Part shown: positions 17,651 to 31,561 of the stretch, in pieces | Layout: each line of letters opens with the position of its first letter | Numbering within the stretch: position 1 is the stretch's first letter | Assembly (NCBI GenBank): GCA_903870685.1 | Contig: CAIQDX010000008.1 | Span: 62,001-126,000 of the forward strand | Direction: 5' to 3' | Source of the DNA: an uncultured Chitinophagaceae bacterium | GTDB lineage: Bacteria; Bacteroidota; Bacteroidia; Chitinophagales; Chitinophagaceae | DNA: 64,000 bases | Notes under the pieces: model-generated | Database searches by the model: none | Seen by the model: the letters and a program-made list of their open reading frames with translations, nothing else | What the model was told of the DNA's origin: nothing | Translations under genes and position numbers: made by a program

Positions 17651-19102
17651 TTAGATCAAATGGAATGATTTTAAAATAATTCTTACACTAATTCCAATAA
17701 CTAAAATACCAACGGCAATAAACATTCCTTTAGTTGGTAATTTCCCTGTAAGCCTTGCTGCAAGCGGCGCTGCCATCACACTACCAAAAATTAATCCAAT
17801 AATAATTGGCCACTGACTAATGCCAATAATCGAAAAAAATGTAAATGCACTTGCAACTGTTATACAAAATTTTGCAGCCACCGATGTGCCAACTGCATAT
17901 CTTGGAGGTCTACCTTTTGAAATGATGGTACTTGTTACTAATGGCCCCCAACCACCTCCACCAACTGAATCTATAAAACCTCCAAATGCGCCAAGCCATC
18001 CAACGTATTTTAATTTTCCGGCGTTTACTTTTTTTGAAGCAAATGCTTTTGTGAAAATATTCACGCCAAGAAATAAAGTATAAAACGCAATGGCCGGTTT
18101 AAAATATCGTGCATATTCGTCTCCGAATTTTATTAAAAACAAAGCACCAATTACTGCGGTTACAACACCCGGTATAGCTAATGTTCTGAATAATTTTTTA
18201 TTGATATTCCCGAAACGAAAATGGCTGATAGTTGAAGCTGCAGAACCAAACATTTCGGAAGTATGTACGCTACTCGAAATAACAGGTAAACTTAATCCCA
18301 TTGATAATAAAACCGAAGTACAAATTACGCCGTAACCCATGCCCATACTGCCTGCTATCATTTCTACACCAAAGCCAACTAATATCATCCAGTAAAAACG
18401 ATTGTCTAAATGCTGTAAAAAATTTCTGGAATGATTGAATACAATTTCAACGGGAATAACAAGCGATAATATAAAACCAGCGAGAACAGAAAGGATAGCA
18501 ATTACAAATAAAATGCTGATTCTTTTATTGCGTTTTTTGTTATCCTTCTTTTTGACCGATTCATCCACAGATAAAATTTTAGTGATCTGGTTTAGTCTAT
18601 TTACCTTATCGACAAAGTTGCCGCTTAATTTGTTACGAATCAAATGAAGATTTTTCAATACTTCGTTTAGTTCGTTGGGTAAGATTTCTGAAAAAATTTC
18701 TTTTAATCTTTTGGCAAGGGTAGGAGATTTGCCGTTTGTAGAAATCGCAATTTTTAAATTTCCTTTTTGGACGATCGAACTTAAATAAAAATCACAGAGC
18801 TCAGGTTTGTCTGCAACATTCACCAAAATATTTTTAGCAGATGCTTTTTCTTTTATTGTTGTTGCGAGTGCAATATCATTAACTGCGATAATTAAGATAT
18901 TGGTTTCTTTCAAATCAGTTTCATCATAAACCTTTTGATGAACAGAAATATTTGAATAAGCATTTGCTAACTGCCAGATCTCATCTTTAATATCAATCGC
19001 AATCAGTTTGATTGTCGTTTCTGGCGAATTTGCAAGTACTGCATTTAATTTTTCCAAAGCAATATTTCCGCCACCGATAATGGTTAAACGAAGCTCTTCC
19101 AA
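17651..19102 (-). CDS. Siroheme synthase (precorrin-2 dehydrogenase/ferrochelatase) fused to a TauE/SafE (TSUP) permease
   Basis: 483 residues from the TTG at 19102. Residues 1-~190 match the Met8/CysG N-terminal module: Rossmann loop LTIIGGGNIALEKL, LIIAVNDIAL, and KIAISTNGKSPTLAKRLKEIF. It turns precorrin-2 into sirohydrochlorin and may insert iron. A Lys-rich linker (KKKDNKKRNKR) leads to a TauE/SafE permease with seven to eight spans (~200-483), with GSMGMGYGVICTSVLL and FGGFIDSVGGGGWGPL. TSUP proteins carry sulfite, sulfate or related anions. The frame is open upstream to 19195 and encodes a conserved-looking LFPIFLKLEEL, so the true start may lie upstream at a non-standard codon. It supplies cofactor for the sulfite reductase at 22582. 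Confidence 0.88.
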   Translation of the reverse strand: MEELRLTIIGGGNIALEKLNAVLANSPETTIKLIAIDIKDEIWQLANAYSNISVHQKVYDETDLKETNILIIAVNDIALATTIKEKASAKNILVNVADKPELCDFYLSSIVQKGNLKIAISTNGKSPTLAKRLKEIFSEILPNELNEVLKNLHLIRNKLSGNFVDKVNRLNQITKILSVDESVKKKDNKKRNKRISILFVIAILSVLAGFILSLVIPVEIVFNHSRNFLQHLDNRFYWMILVGFGVEMIAGSMGMGYGVICTSVLLSMGLSLPVISSSVHTSEMFGSAASTISHFRFGNINKKLFRTLAIPGVVTAVIGALFLIKFGDEYARYFKPAIAFYTLFLGVNIFTKAFASKKVNAGKLKYVGWLGAFGGFIDSVGGGGWGPLVTSTIISKGRPPRYAVGTSVAAKFCITVASAFTFFSIIGISQWPIIIGLIFGSVMAAPLAARLTGKLPTKGMFIAVGILVIGISVRIILKSFHLI

Positions 19103-19249
19103 TTTTAAAAAAATTGGAAAGAGTTTATTTGAATCAGTATTGTTAGACTGATTTGTTTTTGTGTCCAGTATAGTTTCTAATGTTAAAATAATATTTTATT
19201 TATGCAAAGGAATAAAAAGCCTATCAAATTTGTAGGATTATTTTTTGTG

Positions 19250-19320
19250 ACGCCCCGGACGGATTCGAACCGTCGTAAAAGGTTTTGCAGACCACTACCT
19301 AACCGCTCGGCCACAGGGCT
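19250..19320 (-). tRNA. tRNA-Cys (GCA)
   Basis: Read on the minus strand, the sequence folds as a cloverleaf. The anticodon loop is CTGCAAA with anticodon GCA, the T arm is GACGG-TTCGAAT-CCGTC, and the discriminator base is U73, which is the cysteine identity base. The 3' CCA is not encoded. Two pairs look wrong: A1-G72 in the acceptor stem and U28-U42 in the anticodon stem. It lies 45 bases after the TonB receptor stop and 54 bases before the open frame of the siroheme/permease gene, all on the same strand. Confidence 0.88.
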
Positions 19321-19365: not shown

Positions 19366-22194
19366 TTATTTTTTAAAGTTTGTATCAAAGATGATGGTTG
19401 CATAATAGAAACCACCTATTGATGGTCCGCCAATATATTGTGTGTGATAAGTATTTAAAAGATTGGTTCCCCCAATCTTTATGGTTGTACCTAATTCCGG
19501 TAAACGTCTTGATACCTGTGCATCAATCGTACTGTAAGCATTCACAATTCCATTGGCTAAAGGGCTGTTCCAATAAAATGCATCCTGCCAATGCCACACA
19601 ATATTGAAACCGGTATTTTTAATAATTTCTCTGTTGCCAAATGAAATATTTGATATCCATTTTGGTGTGTTGAATGCAGGGGTAAATGCATCCGAATTAT
19701 TAACCTGCACCAAAGCAGCATAACTAATGTTCGCTCCAAAATTGAATTTTTTATAGAAATTATAATTCAATCCGATATCAAAACCCTGATTACTTATTTT
19801 GCTTTTTGAGTTGGTCCACATTTTATATTTTTTTACAGAAGTGCCACCTGTATAAGTAAAATATGCAGAACTGTCGTTGCTTCCACCGGTTTGTCCAATT
19901 GTTCCTCTAATAGGTTGTGTAACATCTAACTGACCAATAAAATTATCGTACACATTAAAATAATAATCTGCATCAATAAATAATTTGTTGTTCAAAACAA
20001 TTCCTTTGTAGCCAACTTCAAAAGAATTTAAGTGTTCGGGTTGAAGATAACTGTAAGTGCTTTGAACCAAAATCCCTTTCTCATTGGTAATAGCAGTATT
20101 CTTATTTATGCCATTGCTGATATCTGCATTCACTGCATTTTTGAAAGCTGTTACAGATGAATTGAGATAAGAATTTTCAAACACATTCAACGGACCGGCT
20201 ATGATTCTTAATCCGCCTAAACGTCTTACGCCACCATTATTCACAAAAGCAAATCCTTCAAATAAAGTTGGAAAGCGATAACCGTTTTGATAAGACATCC
20301 GAAAGTTATTCAAATCACTTGGAGAATAAACTGCAGCAATACGAGGATTGAGTTTCGCATCAAAATATTCTGTTTTGTCAACACGTAAAGAAGCAGTTAG
20401 TTTTAGTTTGTCGTCGAATATTTTTTTTGTTGCCTGAACAAATCCGCCATAATTATAATAAAAGAAATTGTCAGTAGCTTTTGAAGCATCAATTAAAACA
20501 TCCGGATTGATATATTCATTGCCATCAGGTGTAACAATATATTTTCTGTAATGCCCGCCAGCTAAGAGTTGTATGCCTTTGGTTAATTTACTAAAATCAT
20601 ATTGCCCTTCTAAATGATAGAATGAAGATTTTAATAAAAGTTGTGCCCCAACTGTATCCCAATTATTAGTATGAATTACTTTGTTACGAACACTATCGAA
20701 TGCAGCTGTGCCAGGTAAATATCTTCCATTATCTGCTGAAGCTCTTGCCGATGCATGCGATGCCGCAATATCTCCGCCATTAGCAGTAAATGCAGTATTA
20801 AAAGCGTTTGTATAATCTGCCCACCATTGTGGTGATTTTTTAAATGACATATCAATGTTTTCGGCTAAGGGTCTGAAGTTAAAAGAATTGTTTCCGGTGT
20901 TTTCTTGTGTGTAATAAGCTTTAAAGAAAAATTCATTATTTTTTAATTCAAAAGCATGTTGCTGAATTTGTTCACCATCAAGCCTGATACGATTTCCTCT
21001 TTGATAATTATTAGATACTGTTCCAATTCTGTAAGTATAAGATGCTTCCAGCGAGTGCGAAAATTTATAATACAATGAAACATCAACTTTAGAATTTTTC
21101 ACTGTGTAATCGGTTAAATCTTTTTCAACATAACCGGTACGACTAACGTCATATGTTTTTCCATGTAAGGTTAATGTTTTTAGATCGCTGTTATATTCAT
21201 CACCATAGCGATTAATTAGATCAGCACCCGGATTATTTGATGCGCCAATTCCCAAAGAAGTATTTGTTTTATTGCCGGCAGTATAATATTGATCGGTTGT
21301 GTCATTTGAGACCCAATCTTTTCCTAACAGGTATGATGCATTTATTTTGAAAGCAAAATTTTTGGTGATTGCTTTTGCAAACCGAATTGCATATTCACTG
21401 TATAATGATGGTGCTATATCTTTTCCATCAACATGATTAACACCTTGTTTTAAATAAAGACTTAATCCCTGATAACGAAAAGGATTTTTAGTTTTAAGAT
21501 TTGAAATTCCATTGATGGCATTTAAACCATAAACGGCAGAAGCTGCACCAGGAATGAGTTCTACGCTTTCGATATCTAATTCAGTAGGACCAACTGCATT
21601 GGCAACAGGTGCACCGATACCGGGAGAAATATTATCTACACCATCAACCATTTGTAAAAAACGTGAATTAGTTGTACCTGCAAAACCTCTTGTGTTTGGT
21701 ACTTTGTAACCGATACTTAATGTTGTTATTTGAACACCTTTTAAATTTTCGAGTGCATCAAAAAAAGTTGGCGCTGGGCTTTCTTTAATTGCTCTTAGAT
21801 CTAACTTTTCAATTGTTACTGGTGATTGTAAAATACTTTCCGAAACTCTTGAAGCTGTTACAACAACTTGACTCGCATATTGATTTTGTGAATAAAGTGA
21901 GATAGAAAGTTTTCCGGTATTGTTATCTGAGATAAGAAATTCTTGTGACTTATATCCCAAGGAAGAAACTACTATTGTAATAGGAAGTTTCTGAAATATT
22001 TTTAATTCAAAAGAGCCATCCTCTCTTGCAAGAGTTCCGGAATTTGCACCTTTTATTTTGATGATTGCACCGGCTAAAGGTTGTGTATTAATTGTGTCTT
22101 GTATTTTGCCTGAGATTATAAAAGCACCTTGTGCTTTTGATTGAGTTGTCAACGATAAAATTCCGAGTAGAAATAAAAAAATAGTTTTTTTCAT
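19366..22194 (-). CDS. TonB-dependent receptor
   Basis: 942 residues. The signal peptide covers residues 1-21 (ILSLTTQSKAQ). A CarboxypepD_reg-like domain follows at ~25-105 (ISGKIQDTINTQPLAGAIIKIKG), then a plug (~115-235, with SVELIPGAASAVYGLNAINGI) and a 22-strand-type barrel ending in an aromatic residue-rich strand. It imports a ligand across the outer membrane using TonB energy. The ligand cannot be read directly. Its place inside the sulfur assimilation cluster, beside a TSUP permease and tRNA-Cys, suggests a sulfur compound such as a sulfonate or sulfate ester (inference). No SusD partner is present. A 190-base structured leader precedes it. Confidence 0.92.
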   Translation of the reverse strand: MKKTIFLFLLGILSLTTQSKAQGAFIISGKIQDTINTQPLAGAIIKIKGANSGTLAREDGSFELKIFQKLPITIVVSSLGYKSQEFLISDNNTGKLSISLYSQNQYASQVVVTASRVSESILQSPVTIEKLDLRAIKESPAPTFFDALENLKGVQITTLSIGYKVPNTRGFAGTTNSRFLQMVDGVDNISPGIGAPVANAVGPTELDIESVELIPGAASAVYGLNAINGISNLKTKNPFRYQGLSLYLKQGVNHVDGKDIAPSLYSEYAIRFAKAITKNFAFKINASYLLGKDWVSNDTTDQYYTAGNKTNTSLGIGASNNPGADLINRYGDEYNSDLKTLTLHGKTYDVSRTGYVEKDLTDYTVKNSKVDVSLYYKFSHSLEASYTYRIGTVSNNYQRGNRIRLDGEQIQQHAFELKNNEFFFKAYYTQENTGNNSFNFRPLAENIDMSFKKSPQWWADYTNAFNTAFTANGGDIAASHASARASADNGRYLPGTAAFDSVRNKVIHTNNWDTVGAQLLLKSSFYHLEGQYDFSKLTKGIQLLAGGHYRKYIVTPDGNEYINPDVLIDASKATDNFFYYNYGGFVQATKKIFDDKLKLTASLRVDKTEYFDAKLNPRIAAVYSPSDLNNFRMSYQNGYRFPTLFEGFAFVNNGGVRRLGGLRIIAGPLNVFENSYLNSSVTAFKNAVNADISNGINKNTAITNEKGILVQSTYSYLQPEHLNSFEVGYKGIVLNNKLFIDADYYFNVYDNFIGQLDVTQPIRGTIGQTGGSNDSSAYFTYTGGTSVKKYKMWTNSKSKISNQGFDIGLNYNFYKKFNFGANISYAALVQVNNSDAFTPAFNTPKWISNISFGNREIIKNTGFNIVWHWQDAFYWNSPLANGIVNAYSTIDAQVSRRLPELGTTIKIGGTNLLNTYHTQYIGGPSIGGFYYATIIFDTNFKK

Positions 22195-22581: not shown

Positions 22582-24687
22582 ATGCAAAGTTTTCAAACAG
22601 AATTAGAAAATCCTTTAGTAGAAAAAGATATTATTGAACTGGAACAAAAGATCCGTGCTTTTAAAGAAGGCAGTATTTCTGAAGAAAAATTTCGCAGTCT
22701 TCGTTTGGCAAGAGGCGTGTACGGCCAACGCCAGCAGGGGGTTCAGATGGTTCGCATTAAATTGCCTTATGGTAAAATGAGCTTTGCACAATGGAAAAAA
22801 TTGGCAGATGTTACAGATGAATATTCCACAGGAAACTTGCATTTAACAACTCGGCAAGATATTCAATTGCATTTTGTAAGTCTTGATCGAACTCCGGAAA
22901 TGTGGACCGCTTTGGATAAGGATGATCTTACGATTCGTGAAGCTTGCGGTAACACTGTTAGAAATGTTACAGGTTCGGACATGGCCGGAATTGATAGTGA
23001 AGAACCTTTCGATATTACACCTTATGCTCATGCTATCTTCGAATATTTTTTACGCAAACCTGTTGGTCAGGAGATGGGTCGTAAATTTAAAATTGCCGTT
23101 TCGAGTAGTGAAAAAGATAGCGCATTAGTTTTTATGCATGATCTTGGAATCATTCCACGCATCAAAAAAATTAATGGTAAACAAGTTCGAGGTTTTAAAG
23201 TTGTTATCGGTGGCGGATTAGGTGCACAGCCATTTTTAGCAAAAACAACACACGAATTTTTAGAAGAAGAGTTATTGCTTCCATATATTGAAACCGTGTT
23301 GCGTGTATTCGATCGTCATGGCGAACGCAATAGTCGTCATAAAGCAAGAATTAAATTTTTGATTCATCAAATTGGTATCGATGCTTTTAATGAATTGGTT
23401 GCAGTCGAACATAAAGCGATAACAGATAAAAAAGTTGCAATCGATACAAACCGTTTCGAAAATATTTCTTTACCAACAGGAATTTTACCTGATGAAAAAA
23501 TTCAAATCAACAACCCTTTGAATTTTGAAATCTGGAAAAGGACCAATGTAAAAAAACAAAAGCAAGAAGAATATTTTGCAGTGTATGTAAGGGTTCCAAA
23601 TGGTAATATCAGTTCACATGTTAGCAGAAGATTAATTGAAAAATTAAAACCGGTTATCGCTGATGATGTTCGTGTTACCATCACACAAAATTTGCAATTC
23701 CGTTTTATTAAAGCCGAACATCTCGAATATGTTTATAGTGTGCTTGAAGCCGAAAGCCTTGCTGCGCCTGGTTTTGGAAGTGCTGCCGATATTGTTTCCT
23801 GTCCCGGTACCGATACCTGTAATCTTGGTATTTCGAGCAGCACAGGATTAAGTATTGTTCTCTCTCAATTAATTGAAGATGAGTTTCCCGAATTTTTAGT
23901 TGATGAAAATATTGCTATTCGCATCAGCGGTTGTATGAATTCTTGCGGACAACATGGTATTGCCGGAATTGGTTTTCACGGAAGTTCGATGAAAGTAAAA
24001 GACAAAGTAATTCCTGCTGTGCAGGTTTTAATTGGCGGCGGAAATTTAGGTGGCGGCGAAGCCCGTGTTGCTAACAAAGTAATTAAGTTGGCAAGTAAAC
24101 GTGCGCCGGATGCTGTGCGTGTTTTATTAAACGATTTCAAAAACAATCAGCAACAAAACGAAACCTATCTCGATTATACTTTTAATAAAGGCGAAAAATA
24201 TTTTTACGATTTGTTGAAACCTTTGGCAAATGCAGAAACATTATTGGCTGAAGATTTTATTGATTGGGGGCAAGCAGAAAAATTTGCAACTGCAATTGGT
24301 GTTGGCGAATGTGCCGGTGTGATGATCGATCTGGTTTCTACACTAATTTTTGAAGCCGATGAAAAAATTAGCCTGGCCGATGAAAGCCTTGCCAACAAAG
24401 CGTTTGCCGATAGTATCTATCAAACCTATGCGGCATTTATTAATGCGGCAAAAGCATTGTTGTTAAATCATAGTGTGCAGTGCAATACGCAGATCGGAAT
24501 TTTAAATGACTTCGATAAAAACTTTACCGATAAAGGATTGTACACCAATCACGGCAATTTTAAAGAATTGGTTTTACAAATAAATAAAAATGAACCAACC
24601 GAAGAATTTGCAAAAAAATATTTGCAAGAAGCAAAAGATTTTATCGTCTTTGCTTCAGAATTTAAAGAAAAAACTATTTTAAATTAA
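22582..24687 (+). CDS. Siroheme sulfite (nitrite/sulfite) reductase with C-terminal HEPN-like domain
   Basis: 701 residues. The first ~535 residues are a ferredoxin-type nitrite/sulfite reductase: a ferrodoxin-like half (GVYGQRQQGVQMVRIKLPYG), TGNLHLTTRQDIQLH and the siroheme/4Fe-4S ligands C407, C413 (CPGTDTC) and C451, C455 (CMNSC). It reduces sulfite to sulfide with six electrons. No CysJ flavoprotein is adjacent, so the donor is probably ferredoxin. Residues ~550-701 are extra and helical. Their YAAFINAAKALLLNHSV and EEFAKKYLQEAKDFIVFASEF segments resemble HEPN domains. Genomic context among cys genes favours sulfite over nitrite. Confidence 0.9.
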   Translation: MQSFQTELENPLVEKDIIELEQKIRAFKEGSISEEKFRSLRLARGVYGQRQQGVQMVRIKLPYGKMSFAQWKKLADVTDEYSTGNLHLTTRQDIQLHFVSLDRTPEMWTALDKDDLTIREACGNTVRNVTGSDMAGIDSEEPFDITPYAHAIFEYFLRKPVGQEMGRKFKIAVSSSEKDSALVFMHDLGIIPRIKKINGKQVRGFKVVIGGGLGAQPFLAKTTHEFLEEELLLPYIETVLRVFDRHGERNSRHKARIKFLIHQIGIDAFNELVAVEHKAITDKKVAIDTNRFENISLPTGILPDEKIQINNPLNFEIWKRTNVKKQKQEEYFAVYVRVPNGNISSHVSRRLIEKLKPVIADDVRVTITQNLQFRFIKAEHLEYVYSVLEAESLAAPGFGSAADIVSCPGTDTCNLGISSSTGLSIVLSQLIEDEFPEFLVDENIAIRISGCMNSCGQHGIAGIGFHGSSMKVKDKVIPAVQVLIGGGNLGGGEARVANKVIKLASKRAPDAVRVLLNDFKNNQQQNETYLDYTFNKGEKYFYDLLKPLANAETLLAEDFIDWGQAEKFATAIGVGECAGVMIDLVSTLIFEADEKISLADESLANKAFADSIYQTYAAFINAAKALLLNHSVQCNTQIGILNDFDKNFTDKGLYTNHGNFKELVLQINKNEPTEEFAKKYLQEAKDFIVFASEFKEKTILN

Positions 24688-24829: not shown

Positions 24830-25711
24830 TTAATCAAATAAATCGGAAGATAAATATCTGTCACCGCGATCGCAGATGATACAAACAATAACACCTTCTT
24901 TTAATTCGTTCGATACCTCAACAGCTGCGTGAACTGCGCCACCACTGCTCATGCCGGCAAAAATGCCTTCTTCTTTTGCCAAACGTTTGGCCATGATGTG
25001 TGCATCATTATCACTTAATTCAATATTTCTGTCAATTCTTGTTGCATCAAATATTTTTGGAAGATAAGCTGTTGGCCATTTGCGAATGCCGGGAATTTTA
25101 GAACCATCGGTTGGCTGACAACCTACGATTTGAATATTTTTATTTTGTTCTTTTAAATATTTAGAAATACCCATGATAGTGCCGGTGGTACCCATTGCCG
25201 AAACAAAATGTGTAATTTTTTTATTTGTGTCTTTCCAAATTTCAGGACCCGTTGTTTGATAATGAATGAGTGGATTATTTGGATTTGCAAATTGATTGAG
25301 CATGTGGTAACCACCTTTAGCAACTTGCTCGTTGGTATAATCGATAGCACCTTCCATGGCTCTTTCTCTTGGCGTTAAAATTACTTTTGCACCAAAAGCC
25401 TTCATGGCTAAAACCCTTTCTCTGGTTGCATCTTCGGGCATTACTAATTCTATTTCAACACCAAACATACTTGCAATTAATGCCAGTGCAATGCCGGTAT
25501 TACCGCTTGTTGCTTCAATTAATTTTATGCCGGGTTTTATATCGCCGTTGTCAATTGCATGTCTAATCATGCCATATGCTGCACGATCTTTTACACTTCC
25601 GCCGGGATTGTTGCCTTCTAATTTTGCATAGATGGTAACATTTTTATTTGTTGGAATATTTTTAAGCTCAACGAGTGGTGTATTGCCTATTAAATCTAAA
25701 ATGGTTGACAT
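24830..25711 (-). CDS. cysM: Cysteine synthase B (O-acetylserine sulfhydrylase)
   Basis: 293 residues, a fold-type II PLP enzyme. The PLP lysine is K41 in NNPGGSVKDRAAYG, the phosphate-side substrate loop is EATSGNTGIALAL, and the PLP phosphate loop is AMGTTGTIMG. The start (STILDLIGNTPLVEL), the short length and the GCQPTDGSKIPGIRKWP stretch are typical of CysM rather than CysK. It makes cysteine from O-acetylserine and sulfide; in other bacteria CysM also accepts thiosulfate. It is last in the minus-strand cys group, 29 bases after cobA. Confidence 0.92.
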   Translation of the reverse strand: MSTILDLIGNTPLVELKNIPTNKNVTIYAKLEGNNPGGSVKDRAAYGMIRHAIDNGDIKPGIKLIEATSGNTGIALALIASMFGVEIELVMPEDATRERVLAMKAFGAKVILTPRERAMEGAIDYTNEQVAKGGYHMLNQFANPNNPLIHYQTTGPEIWKDTNKKITHFVSAMGTTGTIMGISKYLKEQNKNIQIVGCQPTDGSKIPGIRKWPTAYLPKIFDATRIDRNIELSDNDAHIMAKRLAKEEGIFAGMSSGGAVHAAVEVSNELKEGVIVCIICDRGDRYLSSDLFD

Positions 25712-25740: not shown

Positions 25741-26589
25741 TTAAACCAGAACAGTAATTCCTTCTTTTTGTTCGTGCTGAATAAGTGATGATTTTGTTAA
25801 TGGTTTAAAATAATGTTCATGATCATTGTTGCTTTTAAACCATGCAAATTTTTCATGCAATGAAACAACTTTGCCGATAATTACTAATGAAGGCGATAAA
25901 AATATTTTGCCTTTTAAAGTATTTTGATAGTCATACAAATCAGAAATATATACTTGTTGAAAAGGAGTGGTTGCCTGTTCAACAACGGCTAATAATTTAT
26001 TAGAAGCAATTTTATTTTGCAAAAGCTTTTCTACCACATCATCCAATGTTTCCGAACTCATGTAAAACACCAATGTATCATCGGTGTTTGCTAATTCTTT
26101 CCAGTAATCGTCACTTACAACCCTTGATTTGTAAAACGTTAAAAGCCTTACTGCTGTTGAATGATCGCGGGCTGTTAATGGAATGCCGGCATAAGCAGCA
26201 GCACCTAATGAAGCGGTAACACCGGGAATAATTTCGAATTGAATATTATGTTCCTGCAGTGTTTGTAACTCATCTAAAATATTGGAGAAAATAGAAACAT
26301 CACCACCTTTTAATCGTACTACTAATTTTCCCTGCAATGCATGTTTAATAATTAATTCGTTGATTGTTTTTTGAGAAGTAGAAATTCCTCTGCGGCATTG
26401 TTTACCCACACGAATAATTTCTGCAGAAGTATTTACATAGCGAGTTAATATTTCTTCACTTACTAACCTGTCGGTTAACACTACATCCGCCTGCTGCAAA
26501 TAATTGACGGTTTTAATTGTTATCAGATCAGGATCACCGGGACCGGCACCAGCTAAAATAACTTTGCCAATATTTTTTATTTCACTCAT
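25741..26589 (-). CDS. cobA: Uroporphyrinogen-III C-methyltransferase
   Basis: 282 residues. It methylates uroporphyrinogen III twice to precorrin-2, the branch point to siroheme. Visible SUMT motifs are KVILAGAGPGDPDLITIKTVNYL, VVLTDRLVS, GKQCRRG, LVVRLKGGDVSIF and the GVTASLGAAAYAGIPLTARD stretch. It is a SUMT domain only, with no CysG-type dehydrogenase. The next two steps are provided by the fused protein at 17651-19102, so siroheme synthesis is split between two genes. It is flanked by cysM and cysK in the same orientation. Confidence 0.94.
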   Translation of the reverse strand: MSEIKNIGKVILAGAGPGDPDLITIKTVNYLQQADVVLTDRLVSEEILTRYVNTSAEIIRVGKQCRRGISTSQKTINELIIKHALQGKLVVRLKGGDVSIFSNILDELQTLQEHNIQFEIIPGVTASLGAAAYAGIPLTARDHSTAVRLLTFYKSRVVSDDYWKELANTDDTLVFYMSSETLDDVVEKLLQNKIASNKLLAVVEQATTPFQQVYISDLYDYQNTLKGKIFLSPSLVIIGKVVSLHEKFAWFKSNNDHEHYFKPLTKSSLIQHEQKEGITVLV

Positions 26590-26695: not shown

Positions 26696-27607
26696 TTAAA
26701 ACAAACCTTCAATCGATAAATATCTTTCGCCGGTATCGTAATTAAATGTCAATACTTTCGATCCTTTAGGAATATCAATTAATTTTTTTGCAACTGCAGC
26801 CAATGATGCACCGGTAGAAATTCCTGCAAGAATTCCTTCTTGTTTTGCTAATTTTTGTGCAAAAGAAAATGCTTCGTCTTTACTAACTTGTATAATACCA
26901 TCTAATATTTCTGTATTCAAAATTGATGGAACAAATCCAGCACCAATGCCTTGTAATGGATGCGGACCGGGCGTCCCGCCACTTAACACCGGAGATAATT
27001 CAGGCTCAACAGCAAACACTTTTAAGTTTGAAAATTTTGCTTTTAATATTTCTGCAACACCAGTAATATGTCCGCCGGTTCCAACACCGGTTATAATAAA
27101 ATCTAATCCATCGGGAAAGTCATTTAAAATTTCTTGTGCTGTTGTTTTTCTATGGATCTCCGAATTCGCAGCATTATCAAATTGTTGCGGCAACCATGCA
27201 TTGGGTGTTTCAGCAACTAATTCTTTAGCTTTTTCAATGGCACCTTTCATTCCTTTTTCTCTTGGCGTCAAAACAAATTCAGCGCCATAAATTTCCATTA
27301 ATTTTCTTCTTTCCACACTCATACTTTCGGGCATCACTAAAATTATTTTATAACCTTTCACTGCTGCTACTAATGCTAAACCAATTCCTGTGTTGCCGCT
27401 TGTTGGTTCAATAATAATACTGTCTTTATTTATTAACCCCCTTTTTTCTGCATCTTCTATCATCGCTAATGCAATACGATCTTTAATACTTCCGCCGGGA
27501 TTATTTTTTTCTAATTTGATCCACACTTCTTGGTCATTGCCATAAAGATGGTTGATTCTAACATGTGGTGTGTTGCCAATAGTTTCTAAAATGTTGTTTG
27601 CTTTCAT
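26696..27607 (-). CDS. cysK: Cysteine synthase A (O-acetylserine sulfhydrylase)
   Basis: 303 residues, the usual CysK length. It replaces the acetyl group of O-acetylserine with sulfide to give cysteine. The PLP lysine is K42 in [14 protein letters not shown], followed by [15 protein letters not shown] and the PLP phosphate loop [12 protein letters not shown]. The [11 protein letters not shown] segment that contacts substrate and CysE's tail is intact. The CysE-binding partner is encoded 197 bases upstream. A second, CysM-type synthase is 1 kb downstream. Confidence 0.95.
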
Positions 27608-27669
27608 TTTTTTATTTTTTATTACACGAATAAGATGCTAAGATTTATTTTTTTGTTTTCCAACATTTG

Positions 27670-27769
27670 TTTTTCACGTCATCTTCGTTGTGTCACTCAC
27701 TTGTACGTTCTTTTAAAAGTTCACCTTTTTTGTAGAGTATTGATATACAGTACAAGAGTGCGACGCCAC
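27670..27769. repeat. Dispersed intergenic repeat, copies 7 and 8 as an inverted pair
   Basis: The left arm TTTTTCACGTCATC continues into GTTGTGTCACTCACTTGTAC (27687-27706). After 43 bases comes the right arm GTACAAGAGTGCGACGCCAC (27750-27769). It lies between cysE and cysK, genes in the same direction, so here the hairpin would be inside or between transcripts of the cys group. Confidence 0.85.
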
Positions 27770-27804
27770 CGAAGCTCAATTTTTATTCAAATGTTTGGTA
27801 AATA

Positions 27805-28638
27805 TTAGATCACAAAATTCAAAGCCTCGGTTGCCGGAAATTTATCTTTTATTGCTACTTCGCTTTTATGATAAATTATTGAATTAGGGAATACACTGTA
27901 GGTCAACCATACATTTCCGCCAATTACACTATCGTGACCAACAACCGTATCGCCGCCCAAAATAGTTGCACCCGAATAAATAATTACGTTGTCTTCAATG
28001 GTTGGATGACGTTTTGTTTTTGCTTTTTCTTTCGACACATTCAATGCACCTAATGTTACACCTTGATATATTTTTACATTATTTCCTATCACAGTTGTTT
28101 CGCCAATAACAATTCCTGTTCCGTGATCAATAAAAAAACTGTTGCCAATTTTAGCACCGGGATGAATATCAATTCCCGTTTTGCTGTGCGCATATTCGGT
28201 AAATAATCTTGGTAATAATTTTACACCTTGCTGATACAATTGATGCGATAAACGATAAATTGTTGTTGCATAAAAACCGGGATAAGCTACCAATACTTCT
28301 TCTAAAGATTTTGCTGCAGGATCGAATTGTAAAATAGTTTCTGCATCATGAATCAACTTGTAATAAATCTCTGGTATAGCTTCGAAAAATTTTTCTATGA
28401 CAACTTCTGTTTGATTACTGTCGTGTAAAATATCAAATACTAAACTGGCGAAATGACTTTTTAGTAATTCAAATTCTTTTTCCAAATCTTTCGGTTGTTT
28501 ATGCCTAACCGTTTTGGGAAGGAATAAAAAATTAAACAACTGATCAATAAATTCTTCGGCCATTTCTTTATCAGGAAAAGCAGAATAGGCTTTTGTATTT
28601 TGAGTAAATAATCTTTCAATAAATGCTTGCTGGCTCAT
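27805..28638 (-). CDS. cysE: Serine O-acetyltransferase
   Basis: 277 residues from the ATG at 28638; an upstream ATG at 28671 would overlap cysN and is not favoured. It acetylates serine with acetyl-CoA to O-acetylserine. An N-terminal helical domain is followed by left-handed beta-helix hexapeptide repeats (~165-255), with GIDIHPGAKIGNSFFIDHGTGIVIGETTVIG and the acetyl-CoA loop region GVTLGALNVSKEKAKTKRHPTI. The C-terminus ends NFVI, and a terminal Ile is what CysE uses to dock into CysK. The gap from cysN is 10 bases, so it is in the cysHDNE operon. Confidence 0.94.
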   Translation of the reverse strand: MSQQAFIERLFTQNTKAYSAFPDKEMAEEFIDQLFNFLFLPKTVRHKQPKDLEKEFELLKSHFASLVFDILHDSNQTEVVIEKFFEAIPEIYYKLIHDAETILQFDPAAKSLEEVLVAYPGFYATTIYRLSHQLYQQGVKLLPRLFTEYAHSKTGIDIHPGAKIGNSFFIDHGTGIVIGETTVIGNNVKIYQGVTLGALNVSKEKAKTKRHPTIEDNVIIYSGATILGGDTVVGHDSVIGGNVWLTYSVFPNSIIYHKSEVAIKDKFPATEALNFVI

Positions 28639-28648
28639 AAAAAATATT

Positions 28649-29890
28649 TTATTGAAGCATGCAAGCTCCAACGGTTACTAAACTTGTTTCATCAATTAAA
28701 ATGGCACCGCCATTATTCGGCAGATCTTTATATGAGTCGAAAGGCAATGCCGACGCGGTTTTGATGGTTGCTTTCACAATATCATTCAATCCCACTTTAT
28801 CGAACTCATAAATTTTTTCCAAACTGTTCACGTCTAATTTGTATTCTATTTCTTTTATAACAGTTCGCACCACGCGACTGTTTAATTGCAATAAATATTT
28901 GTTTCCTTTGATGAAAGGTTTGCTGTCCATCCAGCACATCAACACTTCAATTTCATTTTCAATTTTCGGTTGATTATTTTTTTGAACAATAATGTCGCCG
29001 CGGCTGATATCAATATCATCGGCTAAATGCAGCACAACACTTTGCGGTGCAAATGCTTCTTCAACTTCCTTACCTGCAATTTCAATTTTGTAAATGATTG
29101 ATTCTATTCCAGCGGGTTGAACAATTACTTCATCTCCTTTTTTATAAATGCCACTTGTTATTTTTCCGGCATAACCACGATAGTCGTGGAGCTCTTCAGT
29201 TTGCGGACGAATAACATATTGCACTGGAAAACGTGCATCAGTTAAATTAATGTCGTTATGAATTTCAATAGTTTCTAAATAATGCAATAATGAATCGCCT
29301 TTGTACCAAGGATATTTATCGGATCTGTCAACAATATTATCTCCGTTCAATGCACTGATGGGAATATATTTTATATCTTTTAATCCCAATGTTTTTGCAA
29401 CCTGTGTATAATCAATCACAATATTATTATACACATCCTGCGAATAATTTACCAAATCCATTTTATTAATAGCAACAACAACATGTTTAATTCCAAGTAG
29501 CGATGTGATGATGGAATGACGACGTGTTTGTTCGGCAACACCATTTCTTGCATCTACTAAAATAATGGCAAGATTTGCATTCGATGCACCCGTAACCATG
29601 TTGCGTGTGTATTGAATATGACCCGGTGCATCAGCGATAATAAATTTTCTTTTCGGCGTTGAAAAATATTTATAAGCTACATCAATGGTAATACCTTGTT
29701 CTCTTTCGGCACGCAAGCCATCGGTTAATAAAGCCAAATCAATTTCACCATCTTCACGGTTCTTTGTTTGCTTTTCAATTGCTTCTAATTGATCTATCAA
29801 AATACTTTTGCTATCATACAGCAAACGCCCTATCAGCGTGCTTTTGCCGTCATCTACACTTCCTGCTGTTATAAATCGTAAAATGTCCAT
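28649..29890 (-). CDS. cysN: Sulfate adenylyltransferase subunit 1 (GTPase)
   Basis: 413 residues. CysN hydrolyses GTP to drive CysD-catalysed formation of adenylyl sulfate (APS). The EF-Tu-like G domain has the P-loop GSVDDGKS (residues 10-17), DAPGH and NKMD motifs, followed by two beta-barrel domains. It lacks the fused APS kinase (CysC) seen in CysNC proteins and is shorter than the ~475-residue E. coli CysN. It lies 26 bases after cysD. Confidence 0.95.
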   Translation of the reverse strand: MDILRFITAGSVDDGKSTLIGRLLYDSKSILIDQLEAIEKQTKNREDGEIDLALLTDGLRAEREQGITIDVAYKYFSTPKRKFIIADAPGHIQYTRNMVTGASNANLAIILVDARNGVAEQTRRHSIITSLLGIKHVVVAINKMDLVNYSQDVYNNIVIDYTQVAKTLGLKDIKYIPISALNGDNIVDRSDKYPWYKGDSLLHYLETIEIHNDINLTDARFPVQYVIRPQTEELHDYRGYAGKITSGIYKKGDEVIVQPAGIESIIYKIEIAGKEVEEAFAPQSVVLHLADDIDISRGDIIVQKNNQPKIENEIEVLMCWMDSKPFIKGNKYLLQLNSRVVRTVIKEIEYKLDVNSLEKIYEFDKVGLNDIVKATIKTASALPFDSYKDLPNNGGAILIDETSLVTVGACMLQ

Positions 29891-29916
29891 TGTTAAGTTA
29901 TAACTTATTACTTTGT

Positions 29917-30825
29917 TTAAAAATATCCGCTTTTTTTTCTGTCTTCCATTGCAGCTTCACTTACTTTATCATCGATTCTTGTTTCGCCACGTTCGCTTGT
30001 TTTTGTAATAATAATTTCATTGATCACTTCATCTAAAGTTTGCGCATTCGATTCAACTGCTGCAGTGCAAGTCATATCACCAACGGTACGATAGCGAACT
30101 TTTTTTACAGAAACTTTATCAGAAGAATCTAACTGAATAAATTTTGAAGTAGCAACTAATTGCCCTTCCCATTCCAACACTTCACGATCATGCGCAAAAT
30201 AAATAGAAGGCAAATCAATTTTTTCTCGGCGTATATAATTCCAAACATCTAATTCAGTCCAGTTACTTATGGGAAACACTCTTACATTTTCTCCTTTATG
30301 AATTTTACCGTTGTAAGTATTCCATAATTCAGGTCGTTGCAATTTTGGATTCCATTGACCAAACTCATCTCTCACCGAAAAAATTCTTTCTTTGGCTCTA
30401 GCTTTTTCTTCATCGCGACGAGCACCACCAATGCAACAATCAAATTCAAATTCTTCAATAGCATCCAACAGAGTATAAGTTTGTAAAGCATTACGGCTTG
30501 CAAATTTTCCTTTTAATTCAGTTAACTGTTTTGATTTGATGGTGTCTTCAACTTTGCGAACAATTAATTTTTCATCGATCTTTTCTGCCAATGCATCTCT
30601 GAAATCCAAAGCTTCCTGAAAATTATGTCCGGTATCAATATGCATTAAAGGAAAGGGAAATTTTCCGGGACGAAAAGCTTTCAATGCTAAATGCACTAAA
30701 ACGATAGAATCCTTGCCACCACTGAATAATAGGGCAGGACGTTCAAACTGCCCGGCTACTTCACGAAAGATGTGAATGGCTTCCGATTCTAATTGTTGTA
30801 AATAATCAAGTTGATATTTTTCCAT
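29917..30825 (-). CDS. cysD: Sulfate adenylyltransferase subunit 2
   Basis: 302 residues, the normal size. It transfers AMP from ATP to sulfate, giving APS. The PP-loop SGGKDS is at residues 35-40, and the family motifs HIDTGHNFQEALDFRD, CCIGGARRDEEKARAKER and VFPISNWTELDVWNYIRRE are intact. The C-terminus has RYRTVGDMTCTAAVES and a KKSGYF end typical of CysD. It sits 22 bases after cysH and 26 before cysN. Confidence 0.97.
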   Translation of the reverse strand: MEKYQLDYLQQLESEAIHIFREVAGQFERPALLFSGGKDSIVLVHLALKAFRPGKFPFPLMHIDTGHNFQEALDFRDALAEKIDEKLIVRKVEDTIKSKQLTELKGKFASRNALQTYTLLDAIEEFEFDCCIGGARRDEEKARAKERIFSVRDEFGQWNPKLQRPELWNTYNGKIHKGENVRVFPISNWTELDVWNYIRREKIDLPSIYFAHDREVLEWEGQLVATSKFIQLDSSDKVSVKKVRYRTVGDMTCTAAVESNAQTLDEVINEIIITKTSERGETRIDDKVSEAAMEDRKKSGYF

Positions 30826-30847
30826 TTAAAAATCTTAATTCTAAAAA

Positions 30848-31561
30848 TTATTTTCCGTGTAACCCACATTCTTTTTTACTCGCATCTTCCCACCACCAAC
30901 GACCTGCTCTGAAATCTTCACCTGCTTTAATTGCTCTGGTACATGGTGCGCAACCAATGCTTACAAAACCTTTATCGTGTAAAGAATTGTAAGGAATATT
31001 ATATTGATGAATATGTTCGTTTATTTGTTCAGTACTCCAAAGCAATAAAGGATTGTATTTAATAATTTGATTGGATTCATCCCATTCAACTATTTGCAGA
31101 TCTTTTCTTGCAGCAGAATGTTCAGCTCTTAAACCCGTTACCCACACTGCGTTTGAGGCCAATGCTCTTTTTAATGGTTCTACTTTTCTAATATGACAAC
31201 ATTCTTTTCTGTTATCGATTGATTCGTAAAAAGAGTTTGGACCTTTAGAAGCAATAAATTTTTCTATTGAAATATTCTGAGGATAATACGCATCAATTTT
31301 TGTTTGATATCTTTCGTTGGTGCTGTTCCAAACAGAATAAGTTTCAGCAAATAATCTTCCGGTGTCTAAAGTAAAAATGCTAATGTTTAAATGATTGCTT
31401 AATATTTCATGAGCGATCACCTGATCTTCAAAACTAAAACTGGTAGAAAACGTTACCTGCGATGGAAATTGTTTTGCCAATAAAGCTAATCCTTCAGCAA
31501 TATTTTTTGTGTTGAGTTGTTGTGATAAATCAGAAATATTTTTTAAAAGTGTATCTGCCAT
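30848..31561 (-). CDS. cysH: Adenylyl-sulfate (APS) reductase, 4Fe-4S type
   Basis: 237 residues. It reduces activated sulfate to sulfite using thioredoxin. Cys121-Cys122 (KECCHIRK) and Cys204-x-x-Cys207 (GCAPC) are the cluster ligands that distinguish APS reductases from PAPS-specific E. coli CysH. The catalytic Cys232 is in the C-terminal KKECGLH. The N-terminal nucleotide site STSFSFEDQVI and the LDTGRLFAET motif are present. APS specificity agrees with the absence of cysC in the cluster. It is the first gene of the minus-strand cys operon. Confidence 0.94.
   Translation of the reverse strand: MADTLLKNISDLSQQLNTKNIAEGLALLAKQFPSQVTFSTSFSFEDQVIAHEILSNHLNISIFTLDTGRLFAETYSVWNSTNERYQTKIDAYYPQNISIEKFIASKGPNSFYESIDNRKECCHIRKVEPLKRALASNAVWVTGLRAEHSAARKDLQIVEWDESNQIIKYNPLLLWSTEQINEHIHQYNIPYNSLHDKGFVSIGCAPCTRAIKAGEDFRAGRWWWEDASKKECGLHGK

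Follow-up and report, generated by a model that had tools for sequence, protein, structure and literature searches.

A siroheme synthase joined to a TSUP permease in the sulfate-assimilation loci of Bacteroidota

A single gene of an uncultured Chitinophagaceae bacterium joins a siroheme synthase of the Met8/CysG type to a permease of the TSUP family. The gene lies close to a row of sulfate-assimilation genes in the window, which is the whole stretch of 64,000 nucleotides analysed here. Its product is probably a two-function membrane protein of a sulfate-assimilation operon, in which a siroheme synthase and a probable sulfate importer are joined mainly for co-expression. The proposed mechanism has six elements. 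(i) The N-terminal half, cytosolic and probably a homodimer like Met8/CysG, would oxidise precorrin-2 with NAD+. (ii) Precorrin-2 would be supplied by the uroporphyrinogen-III C-methyltransferase (SUMT) encoded nearby. (iii) The N-terminal half would then insert Fe2+, yielding siroheme for the sulfite reductase encoded alongside. (iv) The C-terminal half would carry sulfate, or less likely sulfite or thiosulfate, over the inner membrane. (v) Imported sulfate would feed CysDN, CysH and the sulfite reductase. (vi) The join would be kept mainly for making both products together, at a fixed ratio, when sulfate assimilation is needed. We infer the catalytic activity, sulfate as the substrate, the direction of import, the dimer and the reason for the join. 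Each domain belongs to a known kind, and CysG is an established example of a fusion in the siroheme pathway; the window copy is an ordinary member of a widespread architecture. That architecture is a common component of the sulfate-assimilation operon in Bacteroidota and apparently unreported: a literature search limited to open-licence papers found no description of it.

The fusion gene and its two halves

The gene and its parts are as follows.
17651..19192, minus strand: fusion gene, Met8/CysG-type siroheme synthase and TSUP permease, about 513 amino acids (open reading frame, Pfam, relatives, dN/dS)
18776..19114, minus strand: NAD_binding_7 (PF13241) Rossmann domain, precorrin-2 dehydrogenase part (Pfam; AlphaFold model)
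18809..18811, minus strand: codon of the Asp equivalent to CysG D104 (alignment with CysG)
18722..18724, minus strand: codon of the Pro equivalent to CysG P133, tetrapyrrole platform (alignment with CysG)
18698..18763, minus strand: Sirohm_synth_M (PF14824), bifunctional active-site region (Pfam)
18521..18577, minus strand: basic linker ILSVDESVKKKDNKKRNKR (alignment of 48 homologues)
18464..18523, minus strand: extra leading membrane helix preceding the TSUP core (sequence and model)
17681..18385, minus strand: TauE/SafE (PF01925) TSUP permease core (Pfam)

The frame is open from stop to stop, running from 19195 down to 17651 on the minus strand through 514 uninterrupted codons. Its 513-residue translation contains NAD_binding_7, Sirohm_synth_M and TauE in that order, all above the curated Pfam cut-offs. 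The initial annotation had described one polypeptide carrying a siroheme synthase and a TSUP permease; the single frame and the three domains agree with this, and the domain search that it proposed has matched enzyme and permease profiles above their cut-offs within that frame. The span it gave, 17651-19195, is indeed open, but 19195 is the edge of the frame and holds no start codon. Its 483-residue reading, beginning at TTG 19102, is truncated: that codon falls within the conserved first strand of the enzyme half, LFPIFLKLEEL, which is thereby lost. Upstream of TTG 19102 the frame contains no ATG, GTG or TTG, either in the window species or in a species 89% identical to it (G037). In another relative (L007), an ATG stands within one or two codons of the window's ATT ATT site. 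Because no canonical in-frame start exists upstream and L007 has its ATG at the corresponding place, translation likely begins at a non-canonical AUU (ATT at 19192 or 19189), a start that is not proven. At 19187-19192, ATT is conserved in the window species and G037 near the position of L007's ATG.

The missing canonical start upstream of the core is the one feature that might suggest a frameshift, a missed stop or an assembly chimera joining two separate genes. Such an artefact can be dismissed with near certainty. The same uninterrupted frame is present in G037, in L055, L056 and L007, and in more than 60 genomes of the family. Compared with G037, both halves give a dN/dS of about 0.07 and the linker a smaller value, all below 0.1; enzyme half, permease half and linker are under purifying selection. 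A missed frameshift or stop near the linker, which the initial annotation had held out as a possible flaw, is contradicted by this intact frame in relatives and by selection on the linker.

Both profiles of the enzyme half match well: NAD_binding_7 at residues 27-139 (E 1.4e-20; 74.3 bits against a cut-off of 22.1) and Sirohm_synth_M at residues 144-165 (E 9.8e-10; 38.2 bits against 25). The NCBIfam model cysG_Nterm (TIGR01470) scores 109.4 bits against a cut-off of 62.3. Equivalents of CysG K27, N101, D104, P106 and P133 are all present and invariant in an alignment of 48 fusion proteins. The loop at the catalytic Asp reads DKP and retains the DxP pattern. In CysG, D104 is required for both activities and D104A abolishes both; the dehydrogenase-only SirC has Ser at this position, with SSFS replacing the DAPK loop (PMC7018833). 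The AlphaFold model of the enzyme half aligns with CysG chains at a Z score of about 17 over 115-118 residues (1.6-1.8 A), and its 166-residue module does so at Z 17 and 3.0-3.5 A; the helical/chelatase region of the model is of low confidence (pLDDT 37-60). The earlier description of a complete Met8/CysG-type enzyme is upheld by the domains above cut-offs and the conserved catalytic residues.

The likeness to yeast Met8p and CysG_B extends over domain order, fold, catalytic Asp, DxP loop, P133, K27 and N101; the fusion differs in having Thr for S128 and Lys for R137 and R140, substitutions that, like the low confidence of the helical region, weigh against our preferred explanation. Met8p stands alone and CysG carries a C-terminal SUMT, whereas the partner here is a permease. 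CysG is likewise a gene fusion within the siroheme/sulfate-assimilation pathway, but there the enzyme is joined to a methyltransferase from that pathway rather than to a transporter. SirC of Bacillus shares the Rossmann domain, with about 24-27% identity in structure alignments. However, SirC has neither the catalytic Asp nor a DAPK-type loop and depends on a separate SirB, of which none was found here. The fusion is the sole strong PF13241 match in the genome, that is, its only clear precorrin-2 dehydrogenase. A search of the window genome for a separate class II chelatase found none, neither CbiX (PF01903) nor CbiK (PF06180) having a match. The Asp and DKP loop, together with the lack of a CbiX match, speak against a monofunctional dehydrogenase of the SirC type. 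Since the key residues are kept and no other dehydrogenase or chelatase was found in the genome, the fusion protein most likely performs both last steps if the organism makes siroheme.

The permease half matches TauE at residues 270-504 (E 3.5e-33; 115.7 bits against a cut-off of 32.6), covering profile positions 2-236 of 237. This near-full-length match confirms the complete TSUP permease of the earlier reading and contradicts the reservation, voiced with it, that the half might lack the TSUP profile. The extra leading helix before the Pfam core is also found in stand-alone relatives. The window linker contains eight Lys or Arg and three Asp or Glu. Across the 48 homologues linker charge runs from net basic to net acidic, and usually only the short stretch leading into the first membrane helix is basic; the phrase 'highly basic linker' is true of the window's clade but not general among these homologues. 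A basic flank on the N-terminal side of the leading helix would fit a cytosolic enzyme half. In a model of 17654-19138, the predicted TSUP core (residues 245-492) resembles the undecaprenyl-pyrophosphate phosphatase BacA (5oon; Z 15.0, 234 residues, 3.8 A, 10% identity).

The sulfate-assimilation locus and its distribution

Beyond the fusion, the window holds the following genes.
19249..19320, minus strand: tRNA-Cys (GCA), just upstream of the fusion gene; also adjoins the fusion in four relatives
19366..22194, minus strand: TonB-dependent receptor-like protein (named from sequence); adjoins the fusion in about half of relatives
22582..24687, plus strand: siroheme-dependent sulfite/nitrite reductase-type protein, ferredoxin-type, NirA-like (NCBIfam scores all below cut-off)
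24830..25711, minus strand: cysteine synthase CysM (NCBIfam)
25741..26589, minus strand: SUMT (NCBIfam)
26696..31561, minus strand: CysK, CysE, CysN, CysD and CysH, cysteine synthesis and sulfate activation/reduction (named from sequence)

The product of SUMT, precorrin-2, is the substrate of the enzyme half of the fusion. The sulfite reductase reported nearby is indeed there, at 3.4 kb from the fusion rather than 3.5 kb. It is a 701-residue NirA-like protein, and no neighbouring flavoprotein is seen in the window; in most relatives SUMT and the reductase stand about 1.7 kb apart, a space that may hold cysJ. In four relatives the tRNA-Cys gene lies between the TonB receptor gene and the fusion (L006 3098-3169, L055 664-735, L056 3120-3191 and L059 8845-8916).

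The fusion is found as one frame in 63 of 147 sampled genomes of the window's family. CysD accompanies it in all 63, as against 29 of the 84 genomes that lack the fusion (p 4e-19, indicative only because the genomes are related), and is present in 77 of 77 genomes with a TSUP of this subfamily in any form. CysD serves as the proxy for sulfate assimilation because the window's 701-residue type of sulfite reductase is limited to 30 of the 147 genomes. At phylum level, 395 genomes yield 23 one-piece fusions, spread over five family-level groups, and 78 of 80 named public-genome loci carry the fusion in one piece. Most are flanked by homologues of the window's sulfite reductase, SUMT, CysN, TonB receptor, CysE, CysK, CysD and CysH, mostly on the same strand; the fusion stands close to the end of the series. 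An operon of cysH, D, N, (E, K), SUMT, sulfite reductase, (TonB) and fusion occurs in dozens of named Bacteroidota. Fusion-bearing names include Segetibacter, Sediminibacterium, Cnuella, Taibaiella, Rufibacter, Ferruginibacter, Chryseobacterium, Soonwooa, Elizabethkingia, Lacibacter, Niastella, Niabella, Terrimonas and Saprospiraceae. This survey of frequency and context, proposed in the initial annotation, finds a common fusion adjoining sulfate-assimilation genes. The tie to sulfate assimilation proves stronger than first noted, given the operon context in dozens of genomes and the constant presence of CysD; the rarity then implied is contradicted by the family count and by the presence of the fusion in several Bacteroidota families. 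One fusion (L130) lies on a 7-kb contig labelled Thermoanaerobaculia, outside Bacteroidota, through mis-binning or transfer. No relative of the fusion was found on viral contigs; on plasmids the best matches span the permease half only and none reaches 80% of the query.

Substrate of the permease half

The substrate of a TSUP protein cannot be read from sequence. TK06_RS10770 of Pseudomonas fluorescens rescued E. coli cysA by sulfate import, and Ac3H11_578 of Acidovorax tracks sulfate assimilation (PMC11535334). Corynebacterium glutamicum CysZ is a TSUP sulfate importer, as reviewed in PMC5840216. The permease half is like these three in its TauE/SafE family and its sulfate-assimilation role or neighbourhood, a likeness of family and role rather than of direct sequence comparison; all three are reported as separate proteins. 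A CysT/W-type ABC sulfate permease has no homologue in the window genome, and no other sulfate-type transporter is seen in the window's cys locus. Elsewhere in the genome are two SulP permeases and one PiT permease, which could import sulfate instead and so count against our preferred explanation. As a test for such an alternative importer, the presence of SulP is uninformative, 129 of 147 genomes having one; PiT was found in 14 of 14 genomes tested.

Sulfite export is also known within the TSUP family. Detoxifying export of sulfite in place of sulfate import would accord with the TauE/SafE family name, with the characterised exporters and with a neighbouring sulfite reductase whose substrate is toxic, but we regard it as unlikely: the permease co-occurs strictly with the sulfate-activating CysD, the locus contains no other sulfate transporter, and the characterised TSUPs of sulfate-assimilation operons import sulfate. 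If the permease half is a sulfate importer, the entry step of sulfate assimilation would be assigned in a large group of Bacteroidota, for which the literature searched holds no prior assignment of that step.

Re-pairing of the halves and the reason for the join

In the TSUP tree the permease halves form distinct subtypes. The window permease belongs to a small clade that is sister to type A, a type marked VAGSMGMGYGVICTT; many fusions carry a type B permease, marked VDGALGMGYGVTSTT. Niabella, G119 and G022 each have two genes of this kind, one joining an intact siroheme synthase to a type A permease, the other a degraded N-terminal stub to a type B permease; in Niabella the two genes are about 1.4 kb apart within the same cys locus. 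Degraded-stub TSUPs are scattered over several parts of the permease tree. Of the six stubs scanned, five have a Rossmann match and none has Sirohm_synth_M. TSUP genes with a degraded siroheme-synthase N-terminal stub (the Rossmann part or less) are located as follows.
L106 12927-14315
L123 13006-14394
L035 4693-6033
L037 5118-6479
L151 3564-4865
L155 4511-5839
L043 5187-6437

Elsewhere the two halves are separate. In G118, G126, G059 and L111 the enzyme and permease genes are adjacent and split, and in G100 (L049) 206 codons, a stop and 332 codons share one frame, so that a single stop codon parts the two genes. The separate siroheme synthases of G118, G059 and G100 group with type-B-fused enzymes, yet each adjoins a type A permease. 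In constraint tests, proteins that group together as a single siroheme clade do not hold as a TSUP clade (rejected, p-AU 0.0008); the type A fused and split proteins, a TSUP clade with support 100, are rejected as a siroheme clade (p-AU 0.012). Both values are optimistic, the groups having been chosen post hoc. A single ancestral fusion inherited intact is rejected by this conflict between trees. The conflict, the stubs and the splits therefore indicate that the pairing was made or exchanged more than once: siroheme synthase has been on different TSUP subtypes over time.

The initial annotation had suggested that the fusion could link cofactor supply with anion flux at the membrane. The analysis gave this idea no support, whether as allosteric or as metabolic coupling. 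Joint expression of two products of one operon is enough to account for the data, since one stop codon parts fused and split forms and split or partner-swapped versions are common. Flux-proportional coupling would also bring no obvious advantage, because each reductase molecule needs its siroheme cofactor just once. By analogy with the RCK/KTN Rossmann domains that gate the ion transporters to which they are attached, the enzyme half might gate the permease, or the reverse, with NAD+, precorrin-2 or siroheme sensing controlling sulfate uptake. We consider this improbable. In several branches TSUPs do retain Rossmann-only stubs devoid of chelatase region and catalytic Asp, and purifying selection still acts on the Niabella stub (dN/dS about 0.2), but that value is about four times that of the intact domain in the same genomes, and the glycine motif is lost in several stubs (L037, L043), as in decay. 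The many Rossmann folds that resemble the Rossmann part of the enzyme half include KefC and KtrA domains (Z about 11), a similarity that is generic, and genomes with split genes manage without the join. With the glycine motif gone from some stubs and the stub evolving faster than the intact domain, the stubs look more like decay than conserved sensors. There is little likelihood that Bacteroidota have repeatedly joined, split and re-paired these genes because the enzyme or its stub regulates uptake, as in a cofactor-state-gated sulfate importer.

The join may instead be neutral, a stop having been lost between adjacent co-transcribed genes and the joined product merely tolerated. This explanation shares both activities with a two-function protein kept for co-expression, and differs only in why the join persists. 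It is conceivable, if doubtful. The single stop of G100, the adjacent split genes and the interchange of fused and split states on the trees speak in its favour. Re-paired enzymes and stub-bearing permeases together form a natural set for asking whether a fusion of cofactor enzyme and transporter is functional or operon housekeeping. Neutrality is opposed by the maintenance of the fused state in 63 of 147 family genomes and in several other families, and by fusions with several TSUP subtypes, which are more than one chance accident needs.
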